Assembly: GCF_001898115.1 (NCBI RefSeq)
Contig: NZ_MKSQ01000026.1
Span: forward strand, 501,184-565,183
DNA: 64,000 bases
Reading direction: 5' to 3'
Source of the DNA: Allobosea sp. 67-29
GTDB lineage: Bacteria > Pseudomonadota > Alphaproteobacteria > Rhizobiales > Beijerinckiaceae
The position numbers and the translations under genes were made by a program. The stretch's first letter is position 1. Each line of letters starts with the position of its first letter. This document shows positions 24,700 to 31,783 of the stretch, in pieces. The notes under the pieces were generated by a model. The model was not told the DNA's origin. It searched no databases and was given only the letters and a program-made list of their open reading frames with translations.

Positions 24700-26067
24700 T
24701 CAGGGCCTCCCCGGCGTCCTGGCTTGTCTGATCTTCCGGATGATCATTTCGGCCCGCTCGATCAGGTTGCGAGGGTCGGGATGGCCGTCATATTCCACGA
24801 CGGCAGCGTCCAGCGACAGATCCCTGAGGACATGTCCGCCGATATCGAGCCGGCTCGCGGCAAAGACCGCGGAGATCTGATCGACGAAATCCTGGGCCTC
24901 TGCCTGGGTCGTCTCGACGCGGATCACGAAAAACCGGTCCCGTCCGAACTGGAAGACCGAATCGCTCGAGCGAGAGGCATTGAAGATCATCGTGGCGGCG
25001 TGCTGGGCAAGGACATCGGCTGCTTCCTCGCCGAGGCGGGCGCGCAGTTCGGCCGCACCCGCGATCTCCGCCAGGATCGCGCAGAATGGGTGCGGAACCT
25101 TCTCCTGCAGGCCGATCTCACGGGAGAGCGCCGCCCGCAGATAGCGTCGATGCAAGAGCTGGGTCACCGGATCGCGCGCGCCTTCGACGCCCGTGGCATG
25201 GTCGAACAGCAATGCCACGAGGCGTGCGAGCAGGTCGATCGACGTCTTGAGGCCCTGGAGCGCTTCCCGGCGATCTTCCTGCGCCGCCAGCGCCAGAATG
25301 ATCTCGTCGATCTTGCCGACGGCCTCCAATGCGACGGGATACTCCCTGAACTGCGAGAAGATGACATCGCCCTGATGCAGAAGCCATAGGCCGAATTCGG
25401 AACGACCCAGGCTGCGGCCACCCGGCGGCGCATCGTCAAATTGCGCATGAAAGAATGCGTTCTGGCCCCACTCCGCCAAGGCCGCTCTCTGGCGCTCCCG
25501 CTCGGCCTGAAGATCCTTGCCGATGGAGTAGAGCCGCAAGGCCTCATCCGCTCGCGTGTTGCGCTCGAGATTGCTCATATGCGCGGCGGTCATCGCGCTG
25601 AGCGCGATATCGAGCGATCCCGAGACATAGGCATGTGCCTGCGCGATCTGGGAAGACGGCAGCGGGGCCTGCTTGAGCAGTTCGTAAAGGCGCTGCCTCA
25701 GAACGCGCGTTCCATACATGATCAGGCCGATCGGCACGCGGATCCTGGCATGGGCCGATCCGACGAGAAGCTGCAGCCGGACGATCTCGTCGAGATCGCC
25801 CCTCTCCTTCGGGAACAGCGTTTCGAGCCAATTCTGCAAGGCAGCCTGCAACCGTTCGGCAACGACCGCATTGTCGAGATAGAAATGGGCCCGCGGCCTC
25901 GACTGCACCGCTTCGTAGAAGTCCCGGCTGAGCCCGAGCGCGTGAGCGTGAGTGACGCGCCCGACCACGCGCCGGACCTGGGCGGATGTGACGGAATGGA
26001 GCCGCGACAGCTCCTCCCGCAGGTCGGCAAATTCCAGATCGAAGTGGGCGCGACTATCCAACGCCAT
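24700..26067 (-). CDS. Globin-coupled sensor protein with degenerate GGDEF domain
   Basis: The product is 455 residues laid out like E. coli DosC. A sensor globin covers about 20-170, with the proximal His at about 106 (LVGSAHARIRVPIG). A helical middle region covers 175-295 (RSEFGLWLLHQGDVIFSQF), and a GGDEF-like domain covers 300-450. The active-site motif is GRDRF (375-379) in place of GGDEF, and the upstream substrate-binding Asn and Asp are Arg and Ala in EIAGAAELRARLG, so diguanylate cyclase activity is unlikely. The inhibitory I-site RxxD is intact (RSSD, 366-369) at the correct five-residue distance. I infer a heme-based gas sensor that binds rather than makes c-di-GMP. It is divergent from a chemoreceptor gene. 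Confidence 0.82.
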   Translation of the reverse strand: MALDSRAHFDLEFADLREELSRLHSVTSAQVRRVVGRVTHAHALGLSRDFYEAVQSRPRAHFYLDNAVVAERLQAALQNWLETLFPKERGDLDEIVRLQLLVGSAHARIRVPIGLIMYGTRVLRQRLYELLKQAPLPSSQIAQAHAYVSGSLDIALSAMTAAHMSNLERNTRADEALRLYSIGKDLQAERERQRAALAEWGQNAFFHAQFDDAPPGGRSLGRSEFGLWLLHQGDVIFSQFREYPVALEAVGKIDEIILALAAQEDRREALQGLKTSIDLLARLVALLFDHATGVEGARDPVTQLLHRRYLRAALSREIGLQEKVPHPFCAILAEIAGAAELRARLGEEAADVLAQHAATMIFNASRSSDSVFQFGRDRFFVIRVETTQAEAQDFVDQISAVFAASRLDIGGHVLRDLSLDAAVVEYDGHPDPRNLIERAEMIIRKIRQARTPGRP

Positions 26068-26500
26068 GTCTCACGTTATGAATTCAGAACACAAGCGTAT
26101 ATCTTGATTAAACTATGATTAAATTAAGTTTAATGAACAAATAATTTCGCAGTGCATACTGTTTAATGAATTATTAATTTGCATTAATCGGTTAACTCGC
26201 ACCCCAAGTTCGCGCGCTATTTCATTTCGATTTCAGCAGAAAGCCAATACATTCTGTACCGGACGGTCATCGAAAGGGTTAAAATCCCTCGCGGATAAAG
26301 GAATCTTAATTTTCAGTTTAACTCCATTCTACGTCGGGCATGCAGCGCCTTAAACCTGCGCGGATGCAGATTTGCATTGGCTGACGCTGAGACGACTGCG
26401 GTCGAACCGGCTCGTGCATGAACAGGTTCTCGCCCTCGGCGGGCATCGCGACAGGCAGATTCACATGACGCGCCGGCCGGCGCGCTTCCGGGGGATGTCC
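26068..26500. other. AT-rich divergent intergenic region with inverted repeats
   Basis: This 433-base gap separates the globin-coupled gene from the soluble chemoreceptor. The part from about 26090 to 26345 is strikingly AT-rich for this genome and likely contains both divergent promoters. Two small inverted repeats are visible: ATTAAA/TTTAAT (26118-26134, 5-base spacer) and TTAAT/ATTAA (26163-26177, 5-base spacer). The end of the gap (26372-26500) is in frame with the chemoreceptor and could extend it N-terminally. No independent gene is supported. Confidence 0.6.
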
Positions 26501-28348
26501 ATGCCACTGAAATTGATGAACCCGCTGACCTCTGCATCGCGGACGGCCGAGAGCCAGGCGCTGCGGCGGACCCAGGCTGTCATCGAATTCGAACCGGATG
26601 GCACGATACGCGATGCCAATCCCCTGTTCCTGACGACGCTGGGATATGAGCTCGACGAGATCCGCGGCCAGTCCCATGCCCTGTTCGTCGAACCGGCAGA
26701 GCGCGCCAGCGAGGCCTATCGCAGCTTCTGGACCGAGCTGGCGGCGGGCAAGGCGCATCAGGCGCAGTTCCTGCGAATTGCCAAGGGCGGCCGCAGAATC
26801 TGGCTTCAGGCGACCTATACTCCGGTTCTCGACCGGTCGGGACGCGTCGAGAAGGTCGTCAAATTCGCGTCCGACATCACGGAACTCAAAGGCACCTTCG
26901 CCGACCTCGAAGGGCAGATCGCCGCGATCAACAAGGCGCAAGCGGTTATCCAGTTCGACCTCTCCGGCACCATTCTCGACGCCAATCCGAATTTCCTGGC
27001 GGTCATGGGCTACGCCCGCGACGAGATCATCGGCCGCCATCACAGCCTGTTCGCGAGCGAGGAGCTTCGCACCAGCGCCGCCTATCGCGAATTCTGGGAC
27101 AAGCTGAAGCGCGGGGAATACGACGAAGGCCGCTATATGCGCCTTGCCAAGGGCGGCCGCGCCATCTGGATCCAGGCCAGCTACAATCCCATTCTCGACG
27201 CGGCCGGCCGCCCCTGGAAGGTCGTGAAATATGCAACCGACATCACGGCCTCGGTGATGGCGGAAGAGCGCATGCGCCAGGCTGTTTCCGAGGCGGGGCG
27301 CGTGGTCCAGGCGGCCATCCGGCACGACCTGACGCCACGCATCGCACTCGACGGCTTCTCGGGCGATCTGCTGTCGCTTTGCCGAAGCGTCAACGAGCTC
27401 GTCGAGAATTTTGCCGGAGTCGTTCACTCGGTCGCAGGCATTTCGCAGAATGTCGAAACCGCTTCGCGCGAGATCTCGTCAGGGGCGGAAGATCTGTCGC
27501 GACGCACGGAAGATCAGGCTTCCTCGCTCGAGGAGACCGCGGCCACCACCGAGGAACTCGCCGCTTCCGTGAAGGCGACGGCTCAGGCTTCGCGGGAGGC
27601 GGCGACGATCGCGGACGAGGCGATGAAGGCGGCCGATGCGGGCGGCGCGATCGCCGGGCAGGCGGTGGAGGCCATGGCGCGCATCGAGATCGCCTCGACG
27701 AAGATCGCCGACATCATCCGCGTGATCGACGACATCGCGTTCCAGACCAATCTGCTGGCGCTCAATGCCGCGGTCGAGGCGGCCCGCGCCGGCGACGCAG
27801 GCAAGGGCTTTGCCGTCGTCGCCAGCGAGGTGCGCACATTGGCACAGCGCTCCAGCGCAGCGGCCAAGGACATCGCGGTGCTGATCTCCTCCTCGAACAA
27901 CGAGGTCGCAGACGGCGTCAAGCTGGTGCGCAAGGCGGGAGAGTCGCTCGTCGTCATTCTCGAAGCCTCCCGCAAGGTCGCGGCCACCATCGCCGACATC
28001 TCATCCGCTTCGGGCGAGCAGGCCAGCGGGCTCGACGAGATGAGCCAGGCCGTCGCCCACCTCGATGAAATGACGCAGGCCAACGCCGCGCTGGCCGAGC
28101 AAAGCGCGGCGTCGTCGACCGCGCTGACCGGCCGCACCGCCGAGCTGCATGAGATCATTGCGCGCTTTCGGATCGACGAAGCCGCGACGCGCCCTCTTAC
28201 GGCATCTACCGAGCCCGAACGGCTGCGGCAGCTCGCCCGGGAGGCCTTCCAGGCCGACCGCCGGCCTGGAAGGCCGGCAGCCGGGGTTGCCCCGCCACAG
28301 AAGCGCGCTGCGGCTGGCCGTGGCAGCCGGGGCTGGGAAGAATTCTAG
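26501..28348 (+). CDS. Soluble methyl-accepting chemotaxis protein with two PAS domains
   Basis: The product is about 615 residues and has no transmembrane segment. Two tandem PAS/PAC modules (about 20-130 and 140-255) share near-identical frames such as [19 protein letters not shown] and [24 protein letters not shown]-like helical segment follows, then the MCP signalling domain with the hairpin tip [20 protein letters not shown]. The C-terminus ends in GWEEF, a CheR/CheB-tethering pentapeptide of the xWExF type. The ATG at 26501 is chosen for the GGGGGA six bases upstream; ATGs at 26465 and 26495, and a frame to 26372, are alternatives. It resembles BdlA/Aer-like cytoplasmic energy or redox receptors. 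Confidence 0.9.
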
Positions 28349-28461
28349 GCGCCGCATCTCATCCCTGGCCGGCCGCTCATCGGGCTCATCGCGACCATCG
28401 CTCGAGTCCAACGCGCCCCGTTGCCGCACAACATGTCCACATGTCTCTTCCGGAGAAGAAG

Positions 28462-28770
28462 ATGATGAACGACGAACTGCGAGACTACCTGACCGGCATC
28501 GCCAGCGCCCAGATCAGCCTGTTCGGCCTCCTGGTCGACCATCTGGAACGAGCCGGCGCGCTCGACAAGGCCAAACTTTCGGAAGAGCTGCAGAGCATCA
28601 TGAAGATCTCGGAAAGCAGCGAAAAGCCGCTTCAGCGCTATCAGGCGATGGTGTTCGATCAGGTCATCAGCTGGATGGCGACAGGCAAGCCGCAATGGAC
28701 CCCGGTCGTCATCCAGGGGGATGGCCGCCCCACACCGGGGAAGGACCAGCAGGGCGCGCAGCCCGGCTGA
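28462..28770 (+). CDS. Small uncharacterised helical protein in the chemoreceptor locus
   Basis: The product is 102 residues, acidic and predicted mostly helical ([20 protein letters not shown], then [14 protein letters not shown]), with no signal peptide. I do not recognise a family. The start at 28462 has CGGAG seven bases upstream; the frame can extend to 28441. It lies between the soluble and membrane chemoreceptors on the same strand, 113 bases after the first and 34 before the second, so it is probably co-expressed with them. An adaptor or accessory role is inference only. Confidence 0.62.
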
Positions 28771-28804
28771 ACCGCTGCCCCCTGTGCAAGCAGCCGAGTT
28801 CGCC

Positions 28805-30367
28805 ATGCCGACCGGTCTTCGGTTTCACGAGCGCCTGATCCTGCGTTGGAGCGACGCGCTCGACCTTCGCTTCGGCCTACGCATCGACGCAGGCGAGCGC
28901 GCCGCCATGCGCGCGGCCCAGGCCGTGCGCTTCGGCGCGTCGCTGCCCACCATCCTGCGCGCCAACATCATCTTCGTGCTCGCGATCTCGGCGGTGCTGC
29001 TTTGCAGCGGGTGGCGCGCGCTTCCGCTGATCTGGGCACCGATCACGGCCGCGCTGTCCGTGCTCGGCATTCACCAGATGGGCCTGCTGCGCAAGCGGGA
29101 CTGCAGCGATCCGCCGTCGCCGCGTTTCACCGTCCGCATCATCCGGGATTCCTTCCTGATGGGCCTTCCCTGGGCGGTGCTGGCGACGCTCGTCAACAGC
29201 AGCGCCGCCATGCGCTTCGACGGCGTCATCGGCATCACGATCACCTGCCTCTCCTGCGTCGGGATATTCACGATGGGGATCGTGCCGGCGGCGGCCTTCA
29301 CCTTCCTGGCGACCTTGTGGATCGGGCGCGCCACGCATCTGTTCTATCTCGGGGAGGACTTGCTTCCGATCTACGCGACCGTCGACGTCATATTCCTCGG
29401 CCTCGCCTTGGTGCTGATCCGTTCGGTGGCCACGCTTTTCCTCGATGGCGTCCGCCGGGACTTCAGCATCGCCGAACTTCAACAGGCCCAGAGGCTGCGG
29501 GCCCAGAACGAGGAGGACAAGCGCCGTGCCCTCGAAGGCCGGGTGTCGCACTTCAACTCCTCCGTCTGGGCGGTGCTCTCGGCGCTTACCAACGCCATCG
29601 ACCGGATGAAGCAGAGTTCCGATCAGCTTTCCGCCCTGTCGGGGCGCTCGCGATCTGCCGTCGCCGAAGTCCCCGACATGGTCAATGCGGCGAAGCTCAG
29701 CCTGCGCACGGTCGACGAAGCGTCGGACCGGATGGCGGAAGCTGTCGCGAGCATCAGGACGAACGCCGACAGCGCCTCCGCCTTCGTCCGGCTTGCGTCC
29801 GAGGGCATTCACCGCTCGGCGGCGGCCAAGGCTCGCCTGACGCTGCAGCTGGATGAAGTCGACAAGGAGAGCAATCTCATCCGCGACATTGTCCGGCAAA
29901 CCAACCTGCTCGCGCTCAACGCGACGATCGAGGCGGCGCGCGCCGGGCCTCTCGGCGCCGGCTTCTCGGTGGTGGCCAAGGAGGTGAAGCTGTTGTCGGC
30001 CCGGATCAACGACGCCGCCGGGTTGATCGTCGGACGGATCGAAGACATCCGGACGGCGAGCGAGCAAGCGGCCGTCGCAAGCCAGGACCTGGAGACCAAC
30101 GCGGGCAAAGTCATCGGTTCGGCCGAGCAGATCCTGGCGGCGTCGGACCAGCAGACGGAAGCGCTCTCGCGCATCGCCACGGCACTGAAGGATGTGATCA
30201 GTGCCTCGGAAGCCGCCGGCGAAGCCACCGCGATCGTGATCGCCGGATCGACCGGAGCCCTCGATCAAGCCGTCTCGGTCTCCGAAACCGCACGGCAGGT
30301 CCAGGAAACGGCGAAGGATCTCAACGAAACCGTCGACCAGTTCACCAAGGCCATCATGCAGTTCTGA
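28805..30367 (+). CDS. Membrane methyl-accepting chemotaxis protein with a six-helix N-terminal sensor
   Basis: The product is 520 residues. Six hydrophobic helices occupy about residues 50-212 with very short loops, unlike the usual two-helix periplasmic sensor, so the input is probably from within the membrane, as with MASE-type domains. The signalling half carries the hairpin [20 protein letters not shown] and [13 protein letters not shown]. No clear HAMP or ligand-binding domain is present, and the C-terminus (TKAIMQF) lacks a CheR pentapeptide. The start at 28805 lacks a strong ribosome-binding site and the frame is open to 28721. No cheA/cheW genes are in the window, so it must feed a pathway encoded elsewhere. 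Confidence 0.85.
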
Positions 30368-30424
30368 GCGGGCGGCAACCCAGCCGCTGCGGCAGCCGGC
30401 CGTCCGGGCCTGGCAACGCCGTGG

Positions 30425-31783
30425 CTATGGCGTCGATTCGCCGCCGTGCAGCGCCGCTGCAACGAGATCGACGAGCCGCCGCGAATCCGACACGCCGTCA
30501 TAGCTGGCCACGCCGAATGTCAGGGTGCTTTCCTGGACGGTCTGGCCCTCGATCGAGAAATGGGCGGCCCTGTAGCTCGCGACGATGCGCTGCGCAAAGG
30601 CCCTCGCCTCCGGCAGCTCGGCTTCTACGCGAATGACCAGGAAGGTCTCCCGCCCCATGCTGATCACCACATCGCTCGATCTGACCGCATTGAGCAGGAA
30701 GGCGGCAGTCTGCTGGACCATCGCATCCGCACCGTCCTCGCCCAGGCGCGCGCGCAGCTCGGCGAAGCCGGGGATCTCGAACATGACGAGCGAAAACGTC
30801 TTCCCCGTCCGGCGATAGGCCGTCATCTCGCGCTGGATGGCTGCCTTGAGGAAACGACGGTTCAGCAGGCGCGACAGCGGGTCTCTCGTCCCGCCCATGT
30901 CGAGGAACCGGCTGAACTGGGCCACCATCAGATTGTTGATCTGGTCGGATATCTGCTTGATGTCCTTGAGGCACTCCTGCCGGAGCAGATCCACCTTGCT
31001 GCCATTGAGCTGATTCACAAGCTGGTCGGCGCGTTCGATGAGCGCGGCGGTGGAGGCGTATTCGAGCTTGTGGCCGAACAGGAGATGCGCTCGATGCGAA
31101 AACCAAAGGCCGAACTCCGAGCGGCTCAGCAGCGGCGCGCTCCCAGTGGCCCTCACAAGCGCGGTCTCGAAGAAGACGTCCTGCGCCCATTCAGCGAGGG
31201 CAGCCTTCTGCTTTTCGCGTTCGGCGCGAAGGTCGTGTCCGACCGATATTTCTCGCAACGCTTCGTCGGCCCGTGCCGAACGTTGCATTTCGCTCGCGTA
31301 TCCCGCGACGACCGCCGCCGCGGAGATATCGATCACGGCGGAGATATAGATGAAGGCGTGACTGTAGTAATCTTTCGAAAAATTCTGATCGAGCACGTGC
31401 TTGCTAAAGACGTGCTTGGCGGAAATCGTCGCATTGACGACGACGGGCAATGGGATCTGCCGGTTCGCCTCGGCGGCACCGGAACGCATCTGCCGCGCGA
31501 TGAAAGCATCGGGATCGATACCTTCTCGCGGCAGCAGGCCGACCATCAATTGCGTCAAGCACGAGCGGCAATGGGCAAGCGCCTCGCTGCCCCTGAAATT
31601 GTGCTGGATTCGCGGGCTGTCCGTAAGTCCAGACCAGAACTCGTCTCCGAGCTCTTCGAACAAGCGGTCCGAAGTGGCGGATATGGCACTCCGCACCTTC
31701 TGGGGAACAGCCTTGTTCAAGCGAAGTAGTTGGGTCTTCAACGAAGAAACGTCGAAATCATCCCAGGTGACAGGAAGAAACAT
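30425..31783 (-). CDS. Second globin-coupled-like protein with degenerate GGDEF domain
   Basis: The 452-residue product is a paralogue of the protein at 24700-26067, with matching blocks such as RADEALREISVGHDLRAERE and SRSEFGLWFSHRAHLLFG. Here the GGDEF-like motif is GRETF (377-381) and the I-site is again intact (RSSD, 368-371, five residues upstream). In the N-terminal globin-like domain the position of the proximal His is Glu, at about residue 105 (SGAAEANRQIPLP), so heme binding by the normal ligand is doubtful. It may be a non-heme or regulatory partner of the first paralogue. It is convergent with the membrane chemoreceptor. Confidence 0.78.
   Translation of the reverse strand: MFLPVTWDDFDVSSLKTQLLRLNKAVPQKVRSAISATSDRLFEELGDEFWSGLTDSPRIQHNFRGSEALAHCRSCLTQLMVGLLPREGIDPDAFIARQMRSGAAEANRQIPLPVVVNATISAKHVFSKHVLDQNFSKDYYSHAFIYISAVIDISAAAVVAGYASEMQRSARADEALREISVGHDLRAEREKQKAALAEWAQDVFFETALVRATGSAPLLSRSEFGLWFSHRAHLLFGHKLEYASTAALIERADQLVNQLNGSKVDLLRQECLKDIKQISDQINNLMVAQFSRFLDMGGTRDPLSRLLNRRFLKAAIQREMTAYRRTGKTFSLVMFEIPGFAELRARLGEDGADAMVQQTAAFLLNAVRSSDVVISMGRETFLVIRVEAELPEARAFAQRIVASYRAAHFSIEGQTVQESTLTFGVASYDGVSDSRRLVDLVAAALHGGESTP

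Follow-up and report, generated by a model that had tools for sequence, protein, structure and literature searches.

Degenerate DosC-like GGDEF proteins and their chemoreceptor gene neighbours in Allobosea sp. 67-29

Within a 64,000-nucleotide stretch of DNA from Allobosea sp. 67-29 (contig NZ_MKSQ01000026.1, positions 501,184 to 565,183; hereafter the window), two proteins resembling the diguanylate cyclase DosC lie on either side of a pair of chemoreceptor genes, and the altered GGDEF motifs of both raise the question of what a globin-coupled cyclase does once its enzymatic function appears to be gone. The proteins are encoded on the minus strand at 24700–26067 (P1) and 30425–31783 (P2) of the window, in a genome of 4.86 Mb. 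Their open reading frames (ORFs) are intact, their products are 32% identical over 431 amino acids (aa), and each exceeds the Pfam cut-offs for DosC_2nd and GGDEF, with the DosC middle domain (PF21118) scoring 42.0 and 59.7 bits in the pair (cut-off 31) and DosC pieces as the top matches among solved sequences. The first-pass annotation had described them as paralogues flanking a soluble PAS-PAS chemoreceptor, a small protein and a membrane chemoreceptor, a description borne out by these matches and by the Pfam domains between them.

To read the catalytic domain, 15 degenerate sequences (13 from Bosea and two from metagenome-assembled genomes, MAGs) were aligned with nine canonical relatives and the DosC GGDEF fragment, residues 332, 335, 344, 370, 442 and 446 being numbered as in PleD. 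Six active-site positions are changed in all 15 degenerate rows: the metal-binding Asp is Glu, the phosphate-binding Lys332 is gone, the guanine-binding Asn335 is Arg (including in P1 and P2) or, in the MAGs, Thr or Gln, the second Gly of the motif is Arg (once Gln), the second acid is Thr, Arg or Ser, and the C-terminal Arg446 is changed or absent. Kept in all 15 are the guanine-binding Asp344, the Arg and Asp of the cyclic diguanylate (c-di-GMP) inhibitory site (I-site), the first Gly and the last Phe, while the acid at position 370, the third of the GGDEF motif, is kept in 14 and Lys442 in nine; all of these active-site and I-site positions are intact in the canonical relatives (9/9). P1 thus reads GRDRF and P2 GRETF, with RSSD preceding the motif by five residues in both, just as the first-pass annotation had it, but its further statement that the upstream Asn/Asp had been lost is correct for the Asn alone. 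Loss of the whole C-terminal Lys/Arg pair was likewise considered and rejected, Arg446 being changed throughout and Lys442 kept in nine rows.

Comparable losses occur in 13 further sequences, 37–74% identical to P1, and so amount to more than chance; RSSD-x5-GRETF is found in 11 of the 15 aligned sequences, and RSSD-x5-GRERF in a Xanthobacteraceae sequence sharing about 40% identity with P1. Alanine at any GGDEF residue of E. coli DosC, or at D333, is reported to abolish function in vivo (PMC5549716). Given six changed positions in every row and these dead DosC mutants, cyclase activity is very unlikely, and P1 and P2 have, judging from their residues, almost certainly lost catalysis. An intact GG(D/E)EF, by which a cyclase would be recognized, is missing from P1, P2 and all 15 rows, and we do not file them as cyclases; the combination of a lost active site and a kept RxxD, as in degenerate-GGDEF effectors, is present in all 15.

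The RSSD sequence is inherited: it is present in E. coli DosC, and RxxD occurs in 9/9 canonical relatives, so that its presence alone is weak evidence and was set aside as a decisive argument. What appears informative at the level of sequence is that the I-site has been retained after the active site was lost. A predicted model of P2 (predicted local distance difference test score, pLDDT, 71.8; predicted template modelling score, pTM, 0.41) supports a GGDEF fold, pocket geometry being beyond its quality, and Foldseek matched it to the DosC GGDEF structures 4zvg and 4zvf with template modelling scores by target of 0.77–0.78; no globin was among the 50 matches listed for the P2 model.

The two proteins had been presented as a gas-sensing, globin-type pair, which is supported for P1 and not for P2. 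P1 matches Protoglobin at 38.5 bits (cut-off 25) and keeps the proximal His; a search of P2 for the same domain gave nothing at E<=10, its heme-His column holds Glu, and the proposal that both proteins sense gas was accordingly rejected. Read against the DosC globin sequence, the proximal His, distal Tyr43 and Leu65 are all kept in P1, in its counterpart in the second Bosea genome with both copies (G210), in the single Bosea copy of genome G110 and in the two MAG copies (L071 and L072). Nine single-copy Bosea orthologues keep the His, with Trp and Phe in place of Tyr43 and Leu65. In P2 and its G210 counterpart the His has become Glu, the Tyr Trp, and Leu65 Cys or Tyr. Between the two genomes the P2 proteins are 39% identical in the globin and 81% in the middle domain, against 74% and 78% for the P1 proteins; the Glu in the ligand column and this imbalance indicate that the P2 line has lost its heme function, with the middle domain conserved, and P2 is predicted to be heme-free. 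P1 is thus most likely a heme and oxygen sensor, as predicted from its pocket residues, and of the two proteins the only one for which the term gas sensor is justified.

The middle domain His, which aligns with that of DosC, is kept in 15/15 degenerate rows; DosC function is reported to need middle-domain H223 and the adjacent Lys (PMC5549716). Ratios of nonsynonymous to synonymous substitution (dN/dS) were 0.04–0.36 across 20 comparisons, drawn from six pairs plus the P2 pair, all hand-chosen and not exhaustive, with dS close to saturation in both the P1 and the P2 pair. In five of the six chosen pairs with a GGDEF value, dN is lower in the dead GGDEF domain than in the globin; only the P1 pair departs from this. 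In the tree, 16 degenerate sequences make up one side of a branch with support 100/100, and the clade persists with the GGDEF domain removed. A group of the G110 copy plus P2 and the single copies excludes P1 and its G210 counterpart (support 94/89 and 92/85, neither starred); on this topology P2 is likely the orthologue of the single copies, and P1 either a paralogue of older origin or a replacement.

How far does this gene family travel with chemoreceptors? Degenerate sensors occur in 12/67 Bosea genomes: at E<=1e-20 there were 14 matches, all degenerate, and 55/67 genomes gave none. A family sample gave matches in 11/199 genomes, two of them Bosea and the other nine from other genera with canonical motifs, one of these non-Bosea genomes having a second, likewise canonical copy. 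At strict thresholds, the order sample (397 genomes) held five matching genomes besides the host's, and the class sample (385 genomes) three, all with GGEEF. A gene for a soluble chemoreceptor with two PAS domains and a methyl-accepting chemotaxis protein domain (PAS-PAS-MCP) is near the degenerate sensor in 12/12 Bosea genomes, divergent and adjacent in 11; in G110 the two genes share a strand and are about 3.4 kb apart, separated by a HemAT-like globin receptor. The small gene accompanies the sensor in 10/12 cluster genomes, missing at L047, where the contig ends, and in G110, and the membrane receptor is present in 3/12, with two contigs not long enough to decide. The full two-copy bracket is found in 2/67 Bosea genomes, the host and G210. 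It was therefore rejected as the conserved unit, and the expectation that the gene set extends beyond this strain holds for the core set, in 12/67 genomes. The unit usually consists of a single degenerate sensor together with the soluble receptor and the small protein, and the nine single-copy loci also have flank genes in common.

The proposed tie to chemotaxis is supported by a comparison of loci 9–20 kb long, in which a chemoreceptor domain is present in 12/13 degenerate loci (this window excluded) and in 0/14 canonical loci; the canonical control used 14 of the 18 loci found, leaving out L017 and L092–L094, and the receptor counts call for care at L047, whose receptor gene is cut by the contig end, and at L049, whose receptor is 253 aa. 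Three receptor types lie near degenerate sensors, HemAT-like receptors being those of L045 and L071. At L071, a Hyphomicrobiales MAG, the degenerate copy is directly before the HemAT-like receptor and a PAS-GGDEF gene with GGEEF.

In the window the soluble receptor is encoded at 26495–28348 on the plus strand; the listed ORF begins at TTG 26372 and conserved homology from about ATG 26495/26501. With two PAS domains, an MCP signalling domain and no membrane-like segment, it has the build of AerC and BdlA. Against solved sequences its PAS domains best match 3ewk (3.2e-28), followed by DosP, a blue-light kinase, an Aer PAS and others; 3ewk is the flavin-binding MmoS. The soluble receptor is probably a redox sensor itself. 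Its C-terminus, GWEEF, fits the W-x-[EK]-F ending of 11/11 copies read and resembles the tail by which E. coli receptors tether CheR, for which the host genome has three matches. The copy in one MAG (L049:8131-8892), the receptor of 253 aa, aligns with two large gaps, lacking the signalling hairpin and the greater part of its PAS region, a shortening that is either real or an assembly artefact. The small protein (28441–28770, plus strand, 109 aa, predicted mostly helical) had no match in Pfam, and its moderate model (pLDDT 70.5) drew 29 PDB matches, none at E<=0.001; a model of the small protein matched 6/397 family genomes, all six being cluster-bearing Bosea, with G110 sampled and unmatched.

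The region between P1 and the soluble receptor (26068–26494, 47% GC) is a divergent promoter with three TTAA-N7-TTAA sites, at 26108, 26119 and 26163, the last opening an array TTAA-N7-TTAA-N6-TTAA-N4-TTAA (26163–26195) with near-identical aligned boxes in nine other Bosea loci; the four boxes are nearly invariant and their flanks vary. TTAA-N7-TTAA is the full site of CtrA in Caulobacter (PMC4287350, PMC3692519). In 240,007 bases of ten loci there are 11 copies, all within the sensor-receptor intergenic regions and present in 8/10 of these; shuffled sequences gave a mean of 0.2 and a maximum of 2, with 0/1000 reaching 11, an excess that is overstated in that shuffling treats related promoters as independent. 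The pattern occurs 23 times in the host genome and its reversal 9 times, and a single protein there exceeds the NCBIfam cut-off for CtrA (424 bits, cut-off 350). Taken together, these patterns make CtrA control of the divergent promoter likely. Among 15 loci with N7 sites viewed by eye and unscored, four were beside genes resembling ftsK, ftsQ and flagellar genes. The best CtrA match and one of the CheR matches are less than 300 bases apart on opposite strands (G000:C22:171493-173006).

What, then, might P1 and P2 do? The reading we favour, tentatively and at somewhat short of an even chance, is that they are accessory signalling proteins of the neighbouring chemoreceptor, tuning chemotaxis by oxygen and c-di-GMP. 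Their clade would be an old one in which GGDEF gave up enzymatic activity and took on the role of a receptor domain. P1 would bind heme and oxygen, relaying its state through the DosC-type middle domain, and would carry c-di-GMP at its I-site; P2 would be a paralogue that lost heme and kept the middle domain and dead GGDEF. Both would act on the soluble PAS-PAS receptor, perhaps via the small helical protein, so that oxygen and the c-di-GMP level tune chemotaxis output, contact with the receptor and the direction of any effect being presumptive. A divergent promoter bound by CtrA would have the unit made together with flagella. A bolder form, which we think unlikely though worth entertaining, is that GGDEF serves as a c-di-GMP receptor and that heme-bearing P1 pairs with heme-free P2, the resulting heterodimer docking on cytoplasmic chemoreceptors and reading oxygen and c-di-GMP jointly at the array, a new output mode for globin-coupled sensors.

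Several observations weigh against this tuning of chemotaxis by P1 and P2. Neighbouring genes are indirect evidence, and the Bosea loci are related, so that the independent arrangements number only about three; at L072, a Xanthobacteraceae MAG whose contig starts just before the gene, no receptor was found in the 8 kb behind it, and G110 has a degenerate sensor without the small gene. Trp and Phe at the distal sites of the nine single copies make oxygen sensing there doubtful, and the middle-domain Lys beside the conserved His has been replaced, by Gln in both P1 and its counterpart in G210 and by Arg in the other 13 rows, the change to Arg being shared with five canonical relatives. As to catalysis, DosC mutants in the Lys and in the Asn are each partly functional alone (PMC5549716). 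The I-site may be kept for structure instead, and mutation of the I-site Arg in BpeGReg altered oligomerization (PMC5549716). The P2 gene of G210 (L044:6487-7840) is broken across a pair of frames that overlap, the second of which carries RTSD and GRET, whether by decay or by assembly error. At the promoter, TTAA pairs spaced by 4 (10/10 loci), 6, 14, 17 (16 pairs) and 25 bases occur as often as those spaced by 7, since all the boxes belong to a single array, and two of the ten loci have no N7 pair; the evidence supports a TTAA array and not CtrA as such.

The same observations give purchase to other explanations. The dead GGDEF could be a structural or dimerization partner, P1 and P2 regulating by contact an active cyclase or phosphodiesterase encoded elsewhere, with the receptor neighbours merely co-regulated motility genes; a shared promoter alone could account for that neighbourhood, and L071 does place an intact PAS-GGDEF right behind its HemAT-like gene. 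We nonetheless regard this as unlikely, since the receptor association holds across three receptor types and differing arrangements, and no cyclase or phosphodiesterase was seen in the shared Bosea unit, whose flank genes are partly annotated. Less probable again is that the GGDEF domain senses guanosine triphosphate (GTP) or another nucleotide at its old active site, FimX-like, and not c-di-GMP at the I-site. The retention of Asp344, of the acid at 370 and, in nine rows, of Lys442 makes nucleotide binding there possible, the metal-site Glu is still acidic in 15/15, and both FimX, with a degenerate GDSIF, and CbrR, with SAEKI, are reported to respond to or bind GTP (PMC8846402 and PMC8779298, respectively); set against this are the changes at Asn335, Lys332 and Arg446 in every row and the Arg or Gln at the second Gly, which should crowd the phosphate pocket.

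That the genes are decaying remnants without function is improbable: the P2 globin has diverged fast, the G210 copy is split, and most Bosea genomes (55/67) have no match, but the low dN/dS values and the recurrence of RSSD-x5-GRETF, or GRERF in the Xanthobacteraceae copy, weigh against decay. Least credible of all is that P1 and P2 are still cyclases with an unusual motif. The likeness of the P2 model to DosC GGDEF structures and the tolerance of some cyclases for changes at the first motif position (PMC5549716) would fit; the joint change of six positions in 15/15 rows, and the in vivo inactivity of DosC with alanine at G375, E377 or D333 (PMC5549716), do not.

Individual pieces of the logic proposed for P1 and P2 are already known. 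DosC/YddV (EcGReg) and BpeGReg have the same middle domain and GGDEF fold, sharing the proximal His, distal Tyr43 and Leu65 with P1 and the middle-domain His and RxxD with both proteins; unlike those cyclases, P1 and P2 have a destroyed active site and chemoreceptor genes alongside, and P2 has no heme ligand. PopA, CdgG and CbrR have a lost or variant active site and an I-site that binds c-di-GMP (PMC8779298), and a two-hybrid contact of CbrR with CheA is cited in the same source; the lost site and kept I-site are shared here, whereas the globin sensor module and the pairing with chemoreceptor genes are not, and c-di-GMP binding is a prediction. AerC of Azospirillum and BdlA of Pseudomonas, likened to the window receptor by their domain build, are soluble proteins with two PAS domains and an MCP domain; AerC is described as binding flavin adenine dinucleotide weakly (PMC13401364) and BdlA oligomerizes with c-di-GMP phosphodiesterases (PMC4047105), whereas the window receptor adjoins a dead globin-GGDEF gene and the gene of a small protein that, among sampled genomes, turned up only where the cluster is present. 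The aerotaxis receptors Tlp1 and Aer of Azospirillum are tuned by c-di-GMP (PMC13401364), as is proposed here, but through a PilZ domain on the receptor itself and not through a separate protein with a GGDEF I-site. Among the papers listed from the openly licensed PMC literature, none describes this arrangement, judged from titles and abstract openings, which is not proof that it is unpublished. If the favoured reading is right, an oxygen-sensing cyclase would have been converted into a two-signal reader wired to chemotaxis, offering a testable link between oxygen, c-di-GMP and swimming in Hyphomicrobiales, and the pair with and without a heme ligand would be a natural experiment separating heme from GGDEF function.

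The remaining gene of the bracket, at 28805–30367 on the plus strand, encodes a membrane chemoreceptor with N-terminal hydrophobic segments and an MCP signalling domain; its ORF as listed begins at 28721, within the small gene. At L045:6700-8700 (Bosea sp. AAP35), the HemAT-like receptor and the degenerate sensor are separated by a 147-residue frame that, on visual inspection, resembles a regulator of the MucR/Ros type. The host genome has three other Protoglobin matches, at G000:C26:488410 (L001), G000:C29:105519 (L002) and G000:C25:19847 (L004), whose frames read by eye as globin-coupled chemoreceptors, so that P1 would be the only non-receptor of the four.

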